Shown here: one piece after another, positions 15,169 through 38,737 of the stretch
How positions within the stretch are numbered: the first letter of the stretch is position 1
Layout: every line of letters begins with the position of its first letter
Assembly (NCBI RefSeq): GCF_947499695.1
Contig: NZ_CANMPQ010000002.1
Coordinates: 372,001-436,000 of the forward strand
Source of the DNA: an uncultured Allomuricauda sp.
GTDB lineage: Bacteria > Bacteroidota > Bacteroidia > Flavobacteriales > Flavobacteriaceae
Length of the DNA stretch: 64,000 nucleotides
Direction: 5' to 3'
Position numbers and translations under genes: made by a program
Notes under the pieces: model-generated
What the model saw: only the letters and a program-made list of their open reading frames with translations
Told to the model about the DNA's origin: nothing
The model's database searches: none

Positions 15169-15247
15169 CTTTAAACACCTTTAAGCAACCGATTGGGAAT
15201 TTGGCATCTTCATCAAAGTGGCCTGAACAAATGAAACTCTCATTTCC

Positions 15248-15694
15248 ATGAAAAAATATTTGGTACTTGGTTTGGCATTTTTGTTAAGTGTATCCTGCAG
15301 TAAAGATGAAGAACAAGCGTATGATTCCTTAATAGGCACCTGGACCATTTCTGAAATAAAATCCATATATCAAGAGTTGCCTGCAAACGAAGTTGTTGAA
15401 GAGACCGGGACTCTGGGAACTTTTGTTTTCAATCAAAGGACCGTGAATTTTGATTTTGTTAGAAATGACACCGTTTATCAGGGAAATGCTACTTGGAATC
15501 TTGATCTTGAAAAAGTCCGATCTGGCTTCACTAGGGAAAACTCTTTTACACTGGACGTAGACGGATTTTTTGTTTTTGATGCTTTTTTTGGTGATGGAAC
15601 TAGAAATTCTGAAAAAAACGCCGAATCCCTCTTTTTGATTCAGACTAGAGACAATGGTTTTACCCCAATCTTTGAAATGACACTAAAAAAATAA
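15248..15694 (+). CDS. Lipocalin-like lipoprotein
   Basis: The 148-residue protein starts with MKKYLVLGLAFLLSVSCSKDEE, a lipoprotein signal. The mature part has a LIGTWTISEI segment, the hallmark first strand of lipocalin-like domains in Bacteroidetes, then alternating strand-like stretches (TWNLDLEKV, FTLDVDGFFVF). The ligand is unknown. It is a single gene 79 bp after the DUF2721 gene. Confidence 0.7.
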   Translation: MKKYLVLGLAFLLSVSCSKDEEQAYDSLIGTWTISEIKSIYQELPANEVVEETGTLGTFVFNQRTVNFDFVRNDTVYQGNATWNLDLEKVRSGFTRENSFTLDVDGFFVFDAFFGDGTRNSEKNAESLFLIQTRDNGFTPIFEMTLKK

Positions 15695-33635: not shown

Positions 33636-34667
33636 TTACTTTTTGTACTTAAGTACCTCTGAACGACCTTTTTTGAATATTTTATTGCTCGCGTGTTTGC
33701 CTTTGCGCAGCTTCTTTTGCTCTTCGTAGGGTAATGCATGGATTTCCTTACATTCTTGAGAACAGCACTCATTCATCGCTTCGGAACATTCTTCACATTG
33801 TATAAAAAGTAAATGACAAGCTTCGTTAGCACAGTTTACATGGGTGTCGCACGGTTTTCCGCATTGATGGCAATTGGCAATGACATCTTCTGATATGCGT
33901 TCTCCCCGGCGATGGTCAAAAACAAAATTCTTCCCTAAAAATTTGTTCTCCAAATTTTGGGCTTTTACCTGTCTGGTATATTCAATGATTCCACCTTCTA
34001 ATTGATACACATGTTTAAAACCTTTGTGCCTGTAATAAGCGCTTGCCTTTTCGCATCGGATTCCACCGGTGCAGTACATTACGAGCTTCTTATCTTCTTT
34101 ATGTGAGGACAGGTCTTCTTCAATGATATCCAAGGAGTCCCTGAACGTATCCACATCTGGGGTAAGAGCATTTTTAAAATGACCGATCTCACTTTCGTAG
34201 TGGTTTCTCATATCCACAAGAACCGTATCTGGATCTTCAATAAGTTCGTTGAATTTTTCAGCACCGACATGGATGCCTTTGTTGGTGACATCAAATGTAT
34301 CATCGTCCAAACCATCTGCTACTATTTTTCGGCGGACCTTGACCTTCAGTTTCAAAAATGATTTGTTGTCCTGTTCAATTGCGATATTGAGTCGTACATT
34401 TTCCAAAAATGAAATGGAATCTAGATGTTCTTTAAACACCTGAAAGTTATCAGCCGGAACTGATAATTGGGCATTTATACCTTCGCGGGCCACATAAATT
34501 CGGCCAAGAACATCCATCTCATTCCAATTGATAAAAAGATGGTTTCTAAAAATTTCGGGGTTTCCAATGTGTGCATATTGATAGAAAGAGATGGTCAACC
34601 GGTCCTTGCCGGCCTCCTCTATAAGTTTTGCTCTTTCTTTTGCACTTAATGTATTGTACAGTTGCAT
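33636..34667 (-). CDS. trhO: tRNA uridine-34 hydroxylase TrhO (rhodanese family)
   Basis: With the ATG at 34667 the product is 343 residues. The layout is an N-terminal acylphosphatase-like domain (FLFINWNEMDVLGRIYVAREGINAQLS), a rhodanese domain with the active cysteine in MYCTGGIRCEKAS, and a C-terminal zinc-binding cysteine-rich region (CHQCGKPCDTH, CEECSEAMNECC). TrhO makes 5-hydroxyuridine at the wobble position of tRNA. It is divergent from recA. Confidence 0.92.
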   Translation of the reverse strand: MQLYNTLSAKERAKLIEEAGKDRLTISFYQYAHIGNPEIFRNHLFINWNEMDVLGRIYVAREGINAQLSVPADNFQVFKEHLDSISFLENVRLNIAIEQDNKSFLKLKVKVRRKIVADGLDDDTFDVTNKGIHVGAEKFNELIEDPDTVLVDMRNHYESEIGHFKNALTPDVDTFRDSLDIIEEDLSSHKEDKKLVMYCTGGIRCEKASAYYRHKGFKHVYQLEGGIIEYTRQVKAQNLENKFLGKNFVFDHRRGERISEDVIANCHQCGKPCDTHVNCANEACHLLFIQCEECSEAMNECCSQECKEIHALPYEEQKKLRKGKHASNKIFKKGRSEVLKYKK

Positions 34668-34721: not shown

Positions 34722-34742
34722 CAATTCTTTGATACAAATAAG

Positions 34743-34770
34743 AAAGGGCCTCTTTTAAAAGAGGCCCTTT
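34743..34770. terminator. 28-bp perfect palindrome in the trhO-recA gap
   Basis: AAAGGGCCTCTTTTAAAAGAGGCCCTTT forms a strong hairpin in either strand. It lies between divergent genes, so no annotated gene ends here; the minus side has a weak T-rich tail (TCTTATTT). A second hairpin, GAATCGA/TCGATTC, is at 34823-34840. Together they may mark a small RNA read leftwards. Confidence 0.5.
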
Positions 34771-34902
34771 CAACCACCATGTTTCTTTTCATAGCGCAAA
34801 TTTCCCTTGCTGTGTGGTGTTGAATCGAAAACTCGATTCGATATATTGTTTTTTGAATCAGTTGCCCATTAGATACATCAATTTAAAAAGGTTGCGTTGC
34901 TA

Positions 34903-34953: not shown

Positions 34954-35961
34954 ATGAGCAACGAAAAAGAAGCAAAACTTAAAGCCTTAAAACTGACCCT
35001 TGATAAATTGGACAAAACCTACGGAAAGGGTGCCGTCATGAAATTGGGGGACAGTGTGGTAGCGGATGTAGAGGTTATCCCTTCGGGGTCATTGGGACTG
35101 GATATTGCTTTGGGTGTTAGTGGTTACCCTCGAGGAAGGGTTATTGAAATTTATGGGCCAGAATCATCAGGAAAAACAACACTTACATTACATGCAATTG
35201 CTGAGGCACAAAAAAATGGAGGTATTGCTGCCTTTATTGATGCTGAACATGCCTTTGATCGATTTTATGCTGAAAAATTAGGCGTTGATATTGATAATCT
35301 AATTATTTCCCAGCCTGATCATGGGGAACAAGCTTTGGAAATTGCCGATAATCTTATCCGATCTGGTGCAATTGACATTGTAATTGTTGATTCTGTTGCA
35401 GCGCTTACTCCTAAAAGTGAAATTGAAGGTGAAATGGGTGATTCCAAAATGGGGCTACATGCAAGATTGATGTCACAGGCTTTACGAAAATTAACCGCAT
35501 CCATTAGCAAAACTCATTGTACGGTTATTTTTATCAACCAGTTGAGAGAGAAAATTGGTGTGATGTTTGGAAATCCTGAAACAACAACCGGTGGTAACGC
35601 ACTTAAGTTTTATGCTTCCGTTCGATTAGATATTAGAAGATCTACCCAGATAAAAGATACTGACGGAGCGGTACAAGGTAACAAGACCAGGGTAAAAGTT
35701 GTCAAAAACAAGGTTGCCCCTCCTTTCAAAACTGCTGAATTTGATATTATGTACGGAGAAGGTATTTCCAAGGTTGGAGAAGTGCTGGATCTAGGTGTGG
35801 CATATGAAATTGTGAAGAAAAGCGGTTCTTGGTTTAGCTACGGAGACACCAAACTAGGACAAGGCCGAGACGCGGTTAAAGCGCTGCTGGCGGACAACCC
35901 TGAATTATCAGAGGAACTTGAAGCCAAAATCAAAGAAGCTATCGCTGCCGTTAACGCCTAA
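34954..35961 (+). CDS. recA: Recombinase RecA
   Basis: The ATG at 34954 gives 335 residues, normal for RecA. The Walker A motif is GPESSGKTT near residue 66, Walker B is [14 protein letters not shown] near 140, and [28 protein letters not shown] is the DNA-binding and ATP-sensing loop. RecA carries out strand exchange in repair and, in many bacteria, triggers self-cleavage of S24 repressors. One such repressor is encoded 8.6 kb upstream in this window. It is a single gene. Confidence 0.98.
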
Positions 35962-36060
35962 ACGGGACTTTTTTACCAAACATCTTACTTTTTCAAGAAA
36001 CGGGTAATTTCACGCAACCCTTACCTTTACCATACATCTAGGGTGTAAAGATTTTTAGTG

Positions 36061-36480
36061 ATGAAAAAGTTGATTGCTTTGTTTGCAGTGATTGCTATGG
36101 GGTCTACTCTAAGCTCATGTGACTTGGATGATGGGCAAAACTTTCAGTTTACGACCTTAAGAGTTGTAGAAGCACAAATGCCTGCATTTTTTGAATTGAA
36201 TGAGATTTATGATATTGAGGTGACTTACCAACGGCCCAATGGTTGCACGTTTTTTGAAGGTTTTGATGTGGTCAAAACCGGAGATACAGATCGAGATGTG
36301 GTTGTAGTTGGAACTGAAATAGTCGATGGCGATATAGCCTGTACACAGGCCGTAGAGGAAGTGACCGCTATTCTCCAATTCAATGTGATTTTTACTGGAG
36401 AATATCATTTTAGATTTTATTCTGGCAATGATAATGAAGATAACGCCACATATATAGAATATACGGTTCCTGTGAACTAG
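36061..36480 (+). CDS. Small lipoprotein of unknown function
   Basis: The ATG at 36061 (a GTG lies just before it) gives 139 residues with a lipoprotein signal ending TLSSCDLDDG. The mature part is strand-rich (FTTLRVVEAQMP, IYDIEVTYQRPNGCTFFEGF, FTGEYHFRFYSGND), suggesting a single immunoglobulin-like domain. No family is recognised. It precedes the sigma-factor gene by 28 bp and may share its promoter. Confidence 0.65.
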   Translation: MKKLIALFAVIAMGSTLSSCDLDDGQNFQFTTLRVVEAQMPAFFELNEIYDIEVTYQRPNGCTFFEGFDVVKTGDTDRDVVVVGTEIVDGDIACTQAVEEVTAILQFNVIFTGEYHFRFYSGNDNEDNATYIEYTVPVN

Positions 36481-36508: not shown

Positions 36509-37039
36509 TTGGATCTTGAAGAATTAATACATAATTGTAAAAAGGGCAAAAGACAGGCGCAAGCCGATTTATACCGGAAATACTCCGGTATTCTTTTCGG
36601 TATGTGTCTCAAATATTCCCGAAATAAAACTGAAGCAGAGGATAATCTGCACGATAGTTTTATGACAATTTTTAATAAAATCGACCAATTCAACTTTAAT
36701 GGTTCCTTTGAGGGTTGGATCAAGCGGATTACCGTGAATACCGTACTTCAAAAATATAGAAAGGAGCAACACTTAAATGTGGTTTCCGAGAACATAGGGG
36801 AAGAATTGGACGTTGATACGGAACAGGCTGATATAAGTCTTTCCGCATTATTGGGATATATACAAGAGCTGCCCAACAAGTATAGGTTAACATTCAACCT
36901 CTACGTTTTGGATGGCTACAGTCATAAAGAAATTAGTGAGATGTTGGGAACATCCACGGGGACCTCAAAATCAAATTTGGCAAGGGCCAAAATGATACTG
37001 AGGGAAAAAATTGAAAAAGAAAATATAAACATTGCTTAA
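36509..37039 (+). CDS. ECF-type RNA polymerase sigma factor
   Basis: The 176-residue protein has sigma region 2 (ADLYRKYSGILFGMCLKYSRNKTEAEDNLHDSFMTIF, about 17-55) and region 4 (YIQELPNKYRLTFNLYVLDGYSHKEISEMLGTSTGTSKSNLARA, about 115-160). It directs RNA polymerase to a small regulon. The start used is TTG, because no ATG lies near the domain start in frame. It is followed, 7 bp after its stop, by a protein with an anti-sigma-like N-terminus, which probably controls it. Confidence 0.9.
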   Translation: MDLEELIHNCKKGKRQAQADLYRKYSGILFGMCLKYSRNKTEAEDNLHDSFMTIFNKIDQFNFNGSFEGWIKRITVNTVLQKYRKEQHLNVVSENIGEELDVDTEQADISLSALLGYIQELPNKYRLTFNLYVLDGYSHKEISEMLGTSTGTSKSNLARAKMILREKIEKENINIA

Positions 37040-37046
37040 ATCATCA

Positions 37047-38657
37047 ATGATGGGGAAAAAGAATTTAGAGCAATTGTTCAAAGAAGTATTTAAGGATTTT
37101 AAGGAAAGTCCGGATGATAACGTCTGGAAATCTATTGAAGCTTCCTTGGACAAAAAAGAGAAAAAGAAAAGGGTCATTCCAATATGGTGGCGACTTGGAG
37201 GGGTTGCAGCTTTGTTGGCCCTGCTGTTTTATGTGGTAAATCCATTTGAGAGTTCAAATGAAAACAATGATATTATTATCACTGAAACACAGCAAAAAAC
37301 CGATTCGTCTAACATTAATTCAAACACGGAAGATTCTAAAAAGTCCGAAATTTTCACAACACCTGACGCTGAACAATTCGTTGATTCTTCGAATGAAAAC
37401 GAATCAGAGCCCGTTGAGCAGTCTAATTCTGAAAAAGATGCTGATGATGCATTAATTAAAAATCAAAGTCTTCGGCCCAAACAGCAATTGGCAGGCAATC
37501 CTAATCAACCATACGAAGATATCAGACAGGAAAAGAATTCAGTTTCAAGCAAGAAATTAAATTCTTTTGATACTACTGAACAAGAAGTTGTCTCTAGCGA
37601 TGTTAAACAACAGCCAAAACTTCAAACTGAAAATGAAGCTTTGGAAGTTGCAGAAACCGATACTTCATTGAAAAATTTAGAAACGGAGCATCCGGACAAA
37701 CTTCCTTCAGAAAATACTAGCAAAGAAGTTGATCTTCCACAAAAAGAGAGTCTGTTTGAAATTTCAAAAAGCGATGATGCTATTGTCGAAAACAATGCTG
37801 ATGAACAAGAAAATAAGGTTGAGGAGATAATTAAAAATGAAGAGTCGAATAACACTCCGGAAAAGAAATCCATTTTTGAAGTAATTAAGGAACAAGAGGA
37901 AGAGGCTATTGCGGAAAATACATCTCAAAAATGGTCTGTAGGTCCTTCTGTTGCCCCTGTTTATTTTAGTGCTACAGGAAATGGTTCTCCTATCCACTCA
38001 AATTTTGCTGCTAACTCCAAGTCGGGGAATGTGAATTTGAGTTATGGCCTTACAGTTGCTTACGAATTGGGTAAAAAGTTGAAAGTACGCTCTGGTGTGC
38101 ACCGGGTGAACTATGGTTATGATACCAATGATGTGGTTTTTTCATCGTCATTAAGTGCTTCCCCGAATGATTTGATAGAAAATATAGATTACAGCCAAGC
38201 CTCCCGAACTGTAATAGTTCAGAGCAAGGAGAAAGCCCCTCAGTTTGCAGCGAATGATGCTTTTGTGGAATTGGCCGCCAACGAAACCCCTTCCTTGGAT
38301 GGAAAAATGGTTCAACGATTGGGTTATATTGAAGTTCCTTTGGAGTTGGATTATTCAATTATTGATAAAAAGTTTGGTGTCAATCTTATTGGTGGTGTAA
38401 GTTCTCTTTTTCTTGTTGACAATTCCGTGCTTTTGGAATCCAATGATTTGGTCACGGAAGTTGGGGAGGCCAATAATGCCAATACGGTGAATTTTAGCAC
38501 AAATGTGGGTGTTGGGCTCAATTATGAGTTTTCTTCAAAAATTCAGTTGAGTTTGGAGCCTGTTTTAAAATATCAATTAAATACATTTTCCGAAACCGCC
38601 GGTTCTTTTAGACCATTCTCTGTGGGTGTTTATAGTGGTGTGCGTTTCAATTTTTAA
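37047..38657 (+). CDS. Putative anti-sigma / outer-membrane beta-barrel fusion protein
   Basis: The 536-residue product has an N-terminal region of about 45 residues (LEQLFKEVFKDFKESPDDNVWKSIE) that looks like the cytoplasmic part of an anti-sigma factor, then a membrane segment near 55-70 (VAALLALLFYVV). About 230 residues of low-complexity Glu/Asn/Ser/Lys-rich linker follow. The last 230 residues look like an outer-membrane barrel (VNLSYGLTVAYELGKKLKVRSG, final VGVYSGVRFNF ending in Phe). It might span the envelope and tie outer-membrane state to sigma release. Confidence 0.7.
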   Translation: MMGKKNLEQLFKEVFKDFKESPDDNVWKSIEASLDKKEKKKRVIPIWWRLGGVAALLALLFYVVNPFESSNENNDIIITETQQKTDSSNINSNTEDSKKSEIFTTPDAEQFVDSSNENESEPVEQSNSEKDADDALIKNQSLRPKQQLAGNPNQPYEDIRQEKNSVSSKKLNSFDTTEQEVVSSDVKQQPKLQTENEALEVAETDTSLKNLETEHPDKLPSENTSKEVDLPQKESLFEISKSDDAIVENNADEQENKVEEIIKNEESNNTPEKKSIFEVIKEQEEEAIAENTSQKWSVGPSVAPVYFSATGNGSPIHSNFAANSKSGNVNLSYGLTVAYELGKKLKVRSGVHRVNYGYDTNDVVFSSSLSASPNDLIENIDYSQASRTVIVQSKEKAPQFAANDAFVELAANETPSLDGKMVQRLGYIEVPLELDYSIIDKKFGVNLIGGVSSLFLVDNSVLLESNDLVTEVGEANNANTVNFSTNVGVGLNYEFSSKIQLSLEPVLKYQLNTFSETAGSFRPFSVGVYSGVRFNF

Positions 38658-38709
38658 GTATATAAAAGAAGTTGGTTAGGAAGATTGCTCCTTTAATGCA
38701 ATCATTTAG

Positions 38710-38737
38710 ACACCTTGCTCCGGCAAGGTGTTTTTTT
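38710..38737 (+). terminator. Terminator of the sigma factor-barrel operon
   Basis: ACACCTTGC/GCAAGGTGT with a TCCG loop and seven T on the plus strand, 52 bp after the stop at 38657. Confidence 0.92.

Follow-up and report, generated by a model that had tools for sequence, protein, structure and literature searches.

A recA-linked operon of an uncultured Allomuricauda encodes an extracytoplasmic function sigma factor and a probable Dma-type anti-sigma factor with a predicted outer membrane beta-barrel

The 64,000 nucleotide stretch analysed here (the window; positions 372,001 to 436,000 of contig NZ_CANMPQ010000002.1, assembly GCF_947499695.1) is part of contig C2 in the 3.73-Mb genome of an uncultured Allomuricauda species. 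Just downstream of recA it carries an operon of three genes, which encode a lipoprotein, an extracytoplasmic function (ECF) sigma factor and a protein that is probably the anti-sigma factor of the latter and is predicted to end in an outer membrane beta-barrel. The nearest named kin of the locus are Flagellimonas / Allomuricauda species of the Flavobacteriaceae. The features of the operon, in window coordinates, are as follows.

36014..36039, + strand: putative operon promoter GCAACC-N15-CATCT, preceded by AC, which gives ACGCAACC
36061..36480, + strand: lipoprotein of 139 amino acids, the operon's first gene, with a signal peptide and lipid Cys20 (modelled with AlphaFold2)
36509..37039, + strand: ECF sigma factor of 176 amino acids, TTG start (Pfam and NCBIfam)
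37050..38657, + strand: probable Dma-type anti-sigma factor of 535 amino acids (536 from the alternative ATG at 37047)
37050..37169, + strand: its N-terminal, putatively cytoplasmic anti-sigma-like helical domain, residues 1-40, signature P..VW..IE..L
37182..37235, + strand: its predicted inner membrane helix, residues 45-62 (AlphaFold2 and topology signals)
37248..37859, + strand: its predicted disordered, acidic periplasmic tether, residues 67-270 (predicted local distance difference test, pLDDT, about 33)
37932..38654, + strand: its predicted 8-stranded outer membrane beta-barrel, residues 295-535, with a large loop at about 360-415 (Pfam, AlphaFold2 and Foldseek/VIA)
38708..38733, + strand: terminator-like hairpin at the operon end, 11 pairs and then a T run
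34954..35961, + strand: recA, the constant upstream neighbour of the operon, which is context and lies outside the system

This arrangement is strongly conserved. A homologue of the anti-sigma protein is present in 34 of the 35 other genomes of the genus (the one that lacks it is 75% complete, and G030 has a fragment only), and the sigma protein has Pfam Sigma70 matches, so the sigma/anti-sigma-like pair named in the original prediction is real and not due to chance. Among 80 loci of relatives, 77 lie on contigs that reach the lipoprotein gene in full (left out are L125 and L158, where the contig ends too early, and L163, where the contig end cuts the lipoprotein), and in all 77 recA is directly upstream and is followed by an invariant ECF-style promoter and the genes for lipoprotein, sigma factor and anti-sigma protein, in that order. 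The profiles that confirm the genes of the 80 loci derive from sequences related or identical to those searched and so confirm gene identity, not distant homology; by these profiles the sigma gene is adjacent in 78 of the 80, the other two being at contig ends. The two genes also adjoin in 30 of 30 loci (in L023 the sigma gene is cut by the contig end). Beyond the operon hairpin the next gene encodes an acyltransferase on the opposite strand.

The sigma protein matches Sigma70_r4_2 with 52.6 bits (cut-off 25.7) and Sigma70_r2 with 42 bits (cut-off 24), and among the 25 NCBIfam matches listed only the general ECF model TIGR02937 is above its cut-off (77.9 versus 42.9). The first in-frame start codon of its gene is TTG in 76 of the 77 loci and GTG in one. 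The anti-sigma ATG at 37050 is 10 bp past the sigma stop, and its frame closes at 38657; a further in-frame TTG is found at 37032, and the start common to relatives reads MGKK. Of 30 loci compared, 29 have an ATG start of the anti-sigma gene, and the remaining row is a script offset. A TTG start for the sigma factor next to an ATG start for its inhibitor may hold the former scarce relative to the latter.

The anti-sigma protein had been described in the original prediction as having a short polar N-terminus, a membrane helix, about 230 residues of acidic linker and a strand-rich C-terminus ending in Phe, and the AlphaFold2 model bears out this layout. Helices are found at residues 3-14, 23-37, 45-62 (the membrane segment) and 275-288 and strands within 295-534; the linker is 234 amino acids long (16.7% E, 12% S and 10.7% N), and about 204 residues are modelled as disordered. 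The N-terminal part is a conserved two-helix domain that is common to other sigma-adjacent proteins and is a putative anti-sigma domain; P21, V25, W26, I29 and L33 are invariant in 71 sequences, and no FecR match was found in the protein up to E 1 in Pfam. The net charge has a median of +4 ahead of the membrane helix and -3 behind it (n = 80), as expected for a protein whose N-terminus is inside, and only 6 of 80 relatives have a signal-peptidase-like AxA motif close to where the helix ends, so topology prediction agrees with an N-in membrane helix.

The C-terminal domain matches Pfam OMP_b-brl_2 (PF13568) with 29.3 bits (cut-off 27), and for it the structure prediction gave eight strands and not the confident non-barrel fold that would have spoken against a barrel. 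Its ten-residue mean pLDDT values are mostly 73-93, with a low of 50 in the large loop (residues 401-410). Foldseek and VIA-align group this barrel with small outer membrane proteins, and the top VIA matches (Z 16.7-17.8, 131-180 residues aligned) are a Legionella porin (Z 17.8, 180 residues, root mean square deviation (rmsd) 2.8), an OmpA model (Z 17.5, 169 residues, rmsd 2.6), NspA (Z 17.2, 154 residues, rmsd 3.1), OprF (Z 16.9, 131 residues, rmsd 2.2) and OmpW. The protein ends in ...VYSGVRFNF, Phe is the last residue in 80 of 80 relatives, and across 30 loci the barrel segments rank among its most conserved parts. The genome encodes five PF13568 barrels, of which the window protein alone has the N-terminal extension, the other open frames being 214-251 amino acids long. 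None of the genome's other sigma loci showed a long downstream protein with this layout; at four of them (L041, L060, L061 and L065) the downstream frame exceeds the fetched stretch.

A search with the anti-sigma profile matched 105 of 395 genomes of the class, and the survey of sigma/barrel gene pairs that the original prediction had called for was made on 120 fetched loci (118 from the class search and two from a same-genus search). Of these, 99 have a sigma gene directly upstream of the candidate, one was a duplicate and was dropped, and 20 have no candidate or no adjacent sigma gene. Pfam was scanned with all 59 long proteins (at least 400 amino acids) and with 37 of the 40 short ones. The N-terminal Trp is invariant in the 59 long proteins and at least 90% conserved in the 37 short ones. 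Among the long proteins, 40 match OMP_b-brl_2 at E 0.01 and 37 end in an aromatic residue, so a barrel is not established for every one of them.

The short proteins differ in their C-termini: the CHU_C type IX sorting domain has a match in 16 of the 37 and PKD_4 in nine, and the NCBIfam type B sorting domain is above its cut-off of 35 in two examples (36.5 and 49.5). Three loci, L241:2443-3438 (-), L250:2986-4125 (+) and L287:3001-3984 (+), encode a similar N-terminal domain and helix followed by a PKD and/or type IX C-terminus. Among the papers listed by a literature search, none describes an anti-sigma factor with type IX sorting domains; if these proteins do tie an anti-sigma factor to a type IX cargo signal, they would be secretion sensors of a new type. 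Elsewhere the barrel is encoded by a separate downstream gene, and 9 of 10 scanned neighbours, which were chosen from 26 for their barrel-like look, match OMP_b-brl_2. At L205:2433-4624 (+) a sigma factor, a 252 amino acid anti-sigma-like protein and a separate OMP_b-brl_2 barrel are encoded in a row, which is likely an unfused counterpart of Dma.

These separate barrels, together with a linker that is long, unconserved and unfolded, are what might be expected if the window protein were always cut between helix and barrel, giving a short anti-sigma factor and a free outer membrane protein that do not signal as a single chain. The length of the linker is nevertheless held at 169-248 amino acids in 30 loci while its sequence drifts, the signal-peptidase-like motif is not conserved, and the fusion persists across the class in the 40 long barrel proteins, and we consider such constitutive cutting quite unlikely.

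Alignment of the DNA upstream of the lipoprotein gene revealed an evenly spaced element, A[CA]GCAACC-N15-CATCT, whose hexamer, spacing and -10 box are identical in 77 of 77 loci and which occurs 0 times in the reversed sequence. A scan of the window with a relaxed form of this promoter gave three matches where 0.24 are expected. Besides the operon promoter, the following features of the window concern this element.

34871..34895, - strand: second promoter copy ACGCAACCTTTTT-N-TATCT, spacer 14, divergent from recA
34735..34864, - strand: candidate sigma-dependent small RNA of about 130 nt (fold, terminator scan and conserved boxes)
33639-34667: trhO, beyond the recA-linked RNA, which points towards it
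15185..15209, + strand: weaker, uncertain promoter copy, spacer 14, no AC before it, 39 bp upstream of lipoprotein open reading frame (ORF) 15248-15694

The strict form, ACGCAACC-N14/15-YATCT, has three sites in the genome: at this operon, on the other strand at the recA side, and on contig C4, 16 bp upstream of a 134 amino acid lipoprotein-like ORF. In 36 genomes of the genus there are 90 strict sites versus 11 for the reversed pattern (summed from a per-genome table). The relaxed N14-16 form has 10 matches in the window's own genome versus two for the reversed pattern; eight of the 10 are inside genes, and the strict form was therefore used for claims. Farther afield, GCAAC[CT]-N14-16-[CT][AG]TCT is present in the 900 bp before the sigma gene at 40 of the 99 class loci (0 of 99 in the reversed control), and the spacing is 16 in 33 of these 40. 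Of all the evidence, this pattern speaks most clearly for a sigma factor that would act on its own operon, and we infer from the sequences that factor and promoter belong together.

Another of the genome's ECF sigma factors could in principle read GCAACC-N15-CATCT, in which case the operon would be a target and not a self-contained circuit. There are 30 Sigma70_r2 matches in the genome, and the closest own relatives of the window sigma factor, L051, L044 and L053, are not far from it. In a sigma tree the median distance to the window sigma factor is 2.58 for factors beside long proteins (n = 56), 2.60 for those beside short proteins (n = 40), 2.85 for NigD-linked ones (n = 7) and 4.28 for the genome's other ECF factors (n = 22), and three of the seven NigD-linked factors are more distant than the nearest of the last group (2.96). 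About 1.2 kb separates the strict site on C4 from the gene for the L051 factor. On the other hand, this operon and the recA gene next to it account for two of the genome's three strict sites, and 40 of the 99 class loci combine the site with a related sigma gene, so control by a different factor appears decidedly improbable.

We note two further occurrences of the element. At window positions 15185-15694 (+) GCAACC-N14-CATCT precedes a 148 amino acid lipoprotein-like ORF with no Pfam match, a possible further regulon member by its upstream site. G371 (a genome of the same family, contig C1) has 27 GCAACC-N15-CATCT sites, of which 21 belong to two sequences that are repeated exactly, and the sites look like repeat families and no regulon.

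Counting the window, 78 sequences show recA, and 62 of them have the promoter copy that faces away from it (58 rows of one scan, plus L133, L144, L165 and L166, which were placed by a separate scan). If the 5' end is assumed to be 6 nt past the -10 box, the candidate RNA (130 nt) folds at -39.8 kcal/mol (z -4.99), has conserved 5' TACTAACTC and GCTATGAAAA boxes and ends in a terminator-like hairpin of 13 pairs at 34771-34742. Such a hairpin was found in 58 of 58 rows with our own finder, run without a shuffled control, and an alignment of 39 of the 58 RNAs gave nine predicted pairs, all of them in the terminator, eight of which change on both sides in at least one sequence. The RNA has no match in Rfam up to E 1; the only Rfam hit, istR at 38576-38734, is under its gathering score. 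A conserved micro-ORF within the RNA was considered and rejected, as frame lengths vary.

Could the transcript be an attenuated trhO leader instead of a small RNA? It points towards trhO, and a YceA rhodanese-related protein of Flavobacterium psychrophilum is listed under an ECF-type promoter (PMC9723704). Against this, the hairpin stops about 75 nt ahead of trhO, a different gene follows the recA-side promoter in L126, L162 and L363, and there is no conserved reading frame (counted from the conserved ATG, the frame has 4 to 47 codons in 44 of the 47 rows and stays open in three). We therefore think a leader unlikely. For an ECF-type promoter ahead of a small RNA the same family offers a precedent in the Rfp11 RNA of F. 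psychrophilum (SM6; PMC9723704), where the -10 box is CGT, unlike the CATCT of the window.

A third class of sites precedes tiny one-helix protein frames; this was so in 10 of 10 sister-genome loci examined, which had been picked because no frame of at least 60 amino acids followed the site. The neighbouring genes presumably encode a peroxiredoxin-like and an isomerase-like protein. In sister genomes L399:1574-1657 (+) and a second ORF are tandem genes for one-helix proteins of about 28 amino acids (MNTFFGVLSFLLIVN...SVNGSKK) behind GCAACC-N14-TATCT, and their counterparts in the window's genome are at C1:1346201 and C1:1346403. This class is weak in the latter genome, where the site upstream of C1:1346201 reads AATCT.

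The lipoprotein start at 36061 is preceded by an in-frame GTG at 36058. A Cys within residues 14-32 is present in 77 of 77 loci and the lipobox pattern in 75, and Cys62 and Cys94 are invariant in addition to the lipid Cys20. The AlphaFold2 model is an immunoglobulin-like (Ig-like) sandwich of seven strands (pLDDT 89.6). Foldseek found no match to it among solved structures at E 0.001; VIA ranks 1, 2, 4 and 5 are Bacteroidales proteins, all below the caution line of Z 8: 5bmt (Z 7.0, rmsd 3.8, 103 aligned), 3k0y (Z 6.2, 3.0, 89), 3qwn (Z 6.2, 3.4, 100; the NigD-like one) and 3nqi (Z 5.7, 3.4, 96). By title, one of these four is NigD-like, one a putative lipoprotein, one toxin-related and one uncharacterised. 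That the lipoprotein is a NigD homologue was rejected by sequence, with the fold allowing for it: NigD_C (PF17415) has no match at E 0.001 in the window's genome, hmmscan of the lipoprotein and its relatives (55 in all) gave no NigD_C match, and hhalign of the mature domain against NigD gave Prob 0.6, with signal peptides alone aligning.

NigD does stand beside a sigma factor of a related kind in some genomes (30 NigD loci fetched, 14 aligned). In five of the 14 aligned loci (L297, L301, L302, L306 and L323) NigD, sigma factor and a one-helix protein are encoded in that order on one strand; the one-helix protein of L302 has no match to the N-terminal profile of the window protein, and that of L306 only one at E about 1. 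Two more (L299 and L300) have a divergent pair, and no sigma gene was found in the fetched flank of the other seven or of the 16 unaligned loci (L307-L322). The same-strand order with NigD first, e.g. L301:1147-3345 (+), equals the lipoprotein-first order of the window. By its position the lipoprotein would seem to fill NigD's place; the place matters because NigD lipoproteins are outputs of published systems (NigD1 with Dma1, three NigDs with EcfO).

It has also to be asked whether the barrel senses the co-encoded lipoprotein rather than the membrane, the lipoprotein being either a ligand or plug that resets the system when a sufficient amount is at the surface or a sensor whose absence triggers it. 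In all 77 loci the lipoprotein gene comes first in the operon (at L294, from a genome of a different family, it sits after the anti-sigma gene instead), and the product has two invariant Cys besides the lipid Cys and a confidently predicted fold. The lipoprotein could equally be an effector only, and lipoproteins are outputs in published systems (NigD1, PMC13088901). Sensing of the lipoprotein thus seems possible to us, though doubtful.

A single polypeptide that reaches across both membranes and signals the state of the outer membrane to the sigma factor, as was suggested in the original prediction, remains the best reading of the window protein and is supported by the structure and topology predictions, and such a design is already published for EcfO-Reo and Dma (PMC9308784, PMC13114119 and PMC13088901). 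Dma proteins consist of an N-terminal domain, a helix, a disordered tether and a C-terminal barrel (PMC13088901), and the window protein shares all four parts, the adjacent sigma gene and the Bacteroidota setting with Dma1/Das1 and Dma2/Das2 of Bacteroides thetaiotaomicron (Pardue 2024, 2026). It differs in that its operon is led by a lipoprotein gene and has recA as constant neighbour, and that a recA-linked RNA candidate shares its promoter. NigD1 is needed for the increased vesicles of a dma1 mutant (PMC13088901). Among the papers listed by literature searches, none describes a Dma-type system in the Flavobacteriaceae; in PMC12045153 (TamL) the 2024 Dma1 paper was noted in the reference list only. 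EcfO-Reo of Phocaeicola vulgatus / Bacteroides fragilis likewise has an anti-sigma factor that runs from the cytoplasm to an outer membrane barrel; Reo is proposed to sense outer membrane stress, and the EcfO regulon includes three NigD lipoproteins (PMC9308784, PMC13114119). The window lipoprotein, in contrast, is a single Ig-like domain without the NigD sequence signature.

The statement, made with the original prediction, that anti-sigma factors usually end in the periplasm and signal through separate TonB receptors is incomplete, as it does not hold for the published EcfO-Reo/Dma class. In FecI/FecR surface signalling an ECF sigma factor and a one-helix anti-sigma factor receive their input from the outer membrane. 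The window system shares these traits; it differs in having no FecR match, in having no gene of TonB receptor size in the operon and in joining sensor and anti-sigma factor in one chain. The E. coli RpoE regulon, in which an envelope-stress ECF sigma factor has the small RNAs MicA and RybB as output, resembles it in its candidate small RNA output, and its anti-sigma factor is unrelated. Among the toxins that affect ecfO-reo is Bd-A, which we take to be a short name of bacteroidetocin A. The ecfO-reo genes are the most upregulated ones under BcpT or Bd-A (PMC13114119), and bacteroidetocin A binds and inhibits BamA (PMC9308784); together with the proposal for Reo, these reports support an envelope insult as the input side of the mechanism that follows.

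In this mechanism the N-terminal domain would bind the ECF sigma factor and retain it at the inner membrane, and the periplasmic tether would link that domain to the barrel once the latter is assembled into the outer membrane. The input would be the state of the barrel (folded, inserted, ligand-bound or disturbed), and upon outer membrane disturbance the anti-sigma factor would be lost and the sigma factor set free, with proteolysis of the tether or the membrane helix as the likeliest route. By a polymer-scaling estimate some 200 residues of tether would form a loose coil about as wide as the periplasm, and a direct pull is therefore less likely than regulated cutting. The freed factor would read GCAACC-N15-CATCT at its own operon, at the recA-side small RNA and at a few genes for lipoproteins or tiny membrane proteins, a very small regulon, and the operon would deliver the lipoprotein first and the anti-sigma factor last, as a brake. 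The lipoprotein may be effector, ligand or both.

Several observations weigh against this reading. Overall confidence in the anti-sigma model is modest owing to the linker (mean pLDDT 60, predicted template modelling score 0.46), and the PF13568 score exceeds its cut-off by only 2 bits. The promoter pattern is missing at 59 of the 99 class sigma/anti-sigma loci, it occurs once in eight loci with NigD beside a sigma gene, on the strand opposite sigma (L323), and ACGCAACC-N15-CATCTA is absent in 15 of 15 same-order genomes outside the genus. In the window the small RNA promoter deviates from that of the operon (spacer 14, TATCT), and the lipoprotein is not a NigD by sequence. With these points taken into account, we still consider it probable that the locus is a Flagellimonas-type (Flavobacteriaceae) Dma / EcfO-Reo system, in which the sigma factor is leashed to an outer membrane barrel and reads its own promoter.

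The class of system is already known from gut Bacteroidales; new here are the lipoprotein gene, the promoter signature, the candidate small RNA and the alternative sensors. More tentatively, and with some reserve, we suggest a class-wide envelope-stress module of the Bacteroidota, in which one sigma group and GCAACC-N15/16-CATCT would be combined with one anti-sigma domain placed on varied reporters: a barrel on a tether (Dma), a barrel encoded by a gene of its own, or a PKD and type IX sorting domain that would report secretion. Its output in the Flavobacteriaceae would be a lipoprotein, the recA-linked small RNA and tiny membrane proteins, convergent with RpoE-MicA/RybB. The locus bears on how the state of the outer membrane is passed to transcription in the Bacteroidota: it carries the Dma layout beyond gut Bacteroidales into marine Flavobacteriaceae, with a conserved third gene, and its precise promoter word predicts a regulon that includes a candidate small RNA. 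In the variants with type IX sorting domains, this switch seems to have been rebuilt to watch another outer membrane machine.

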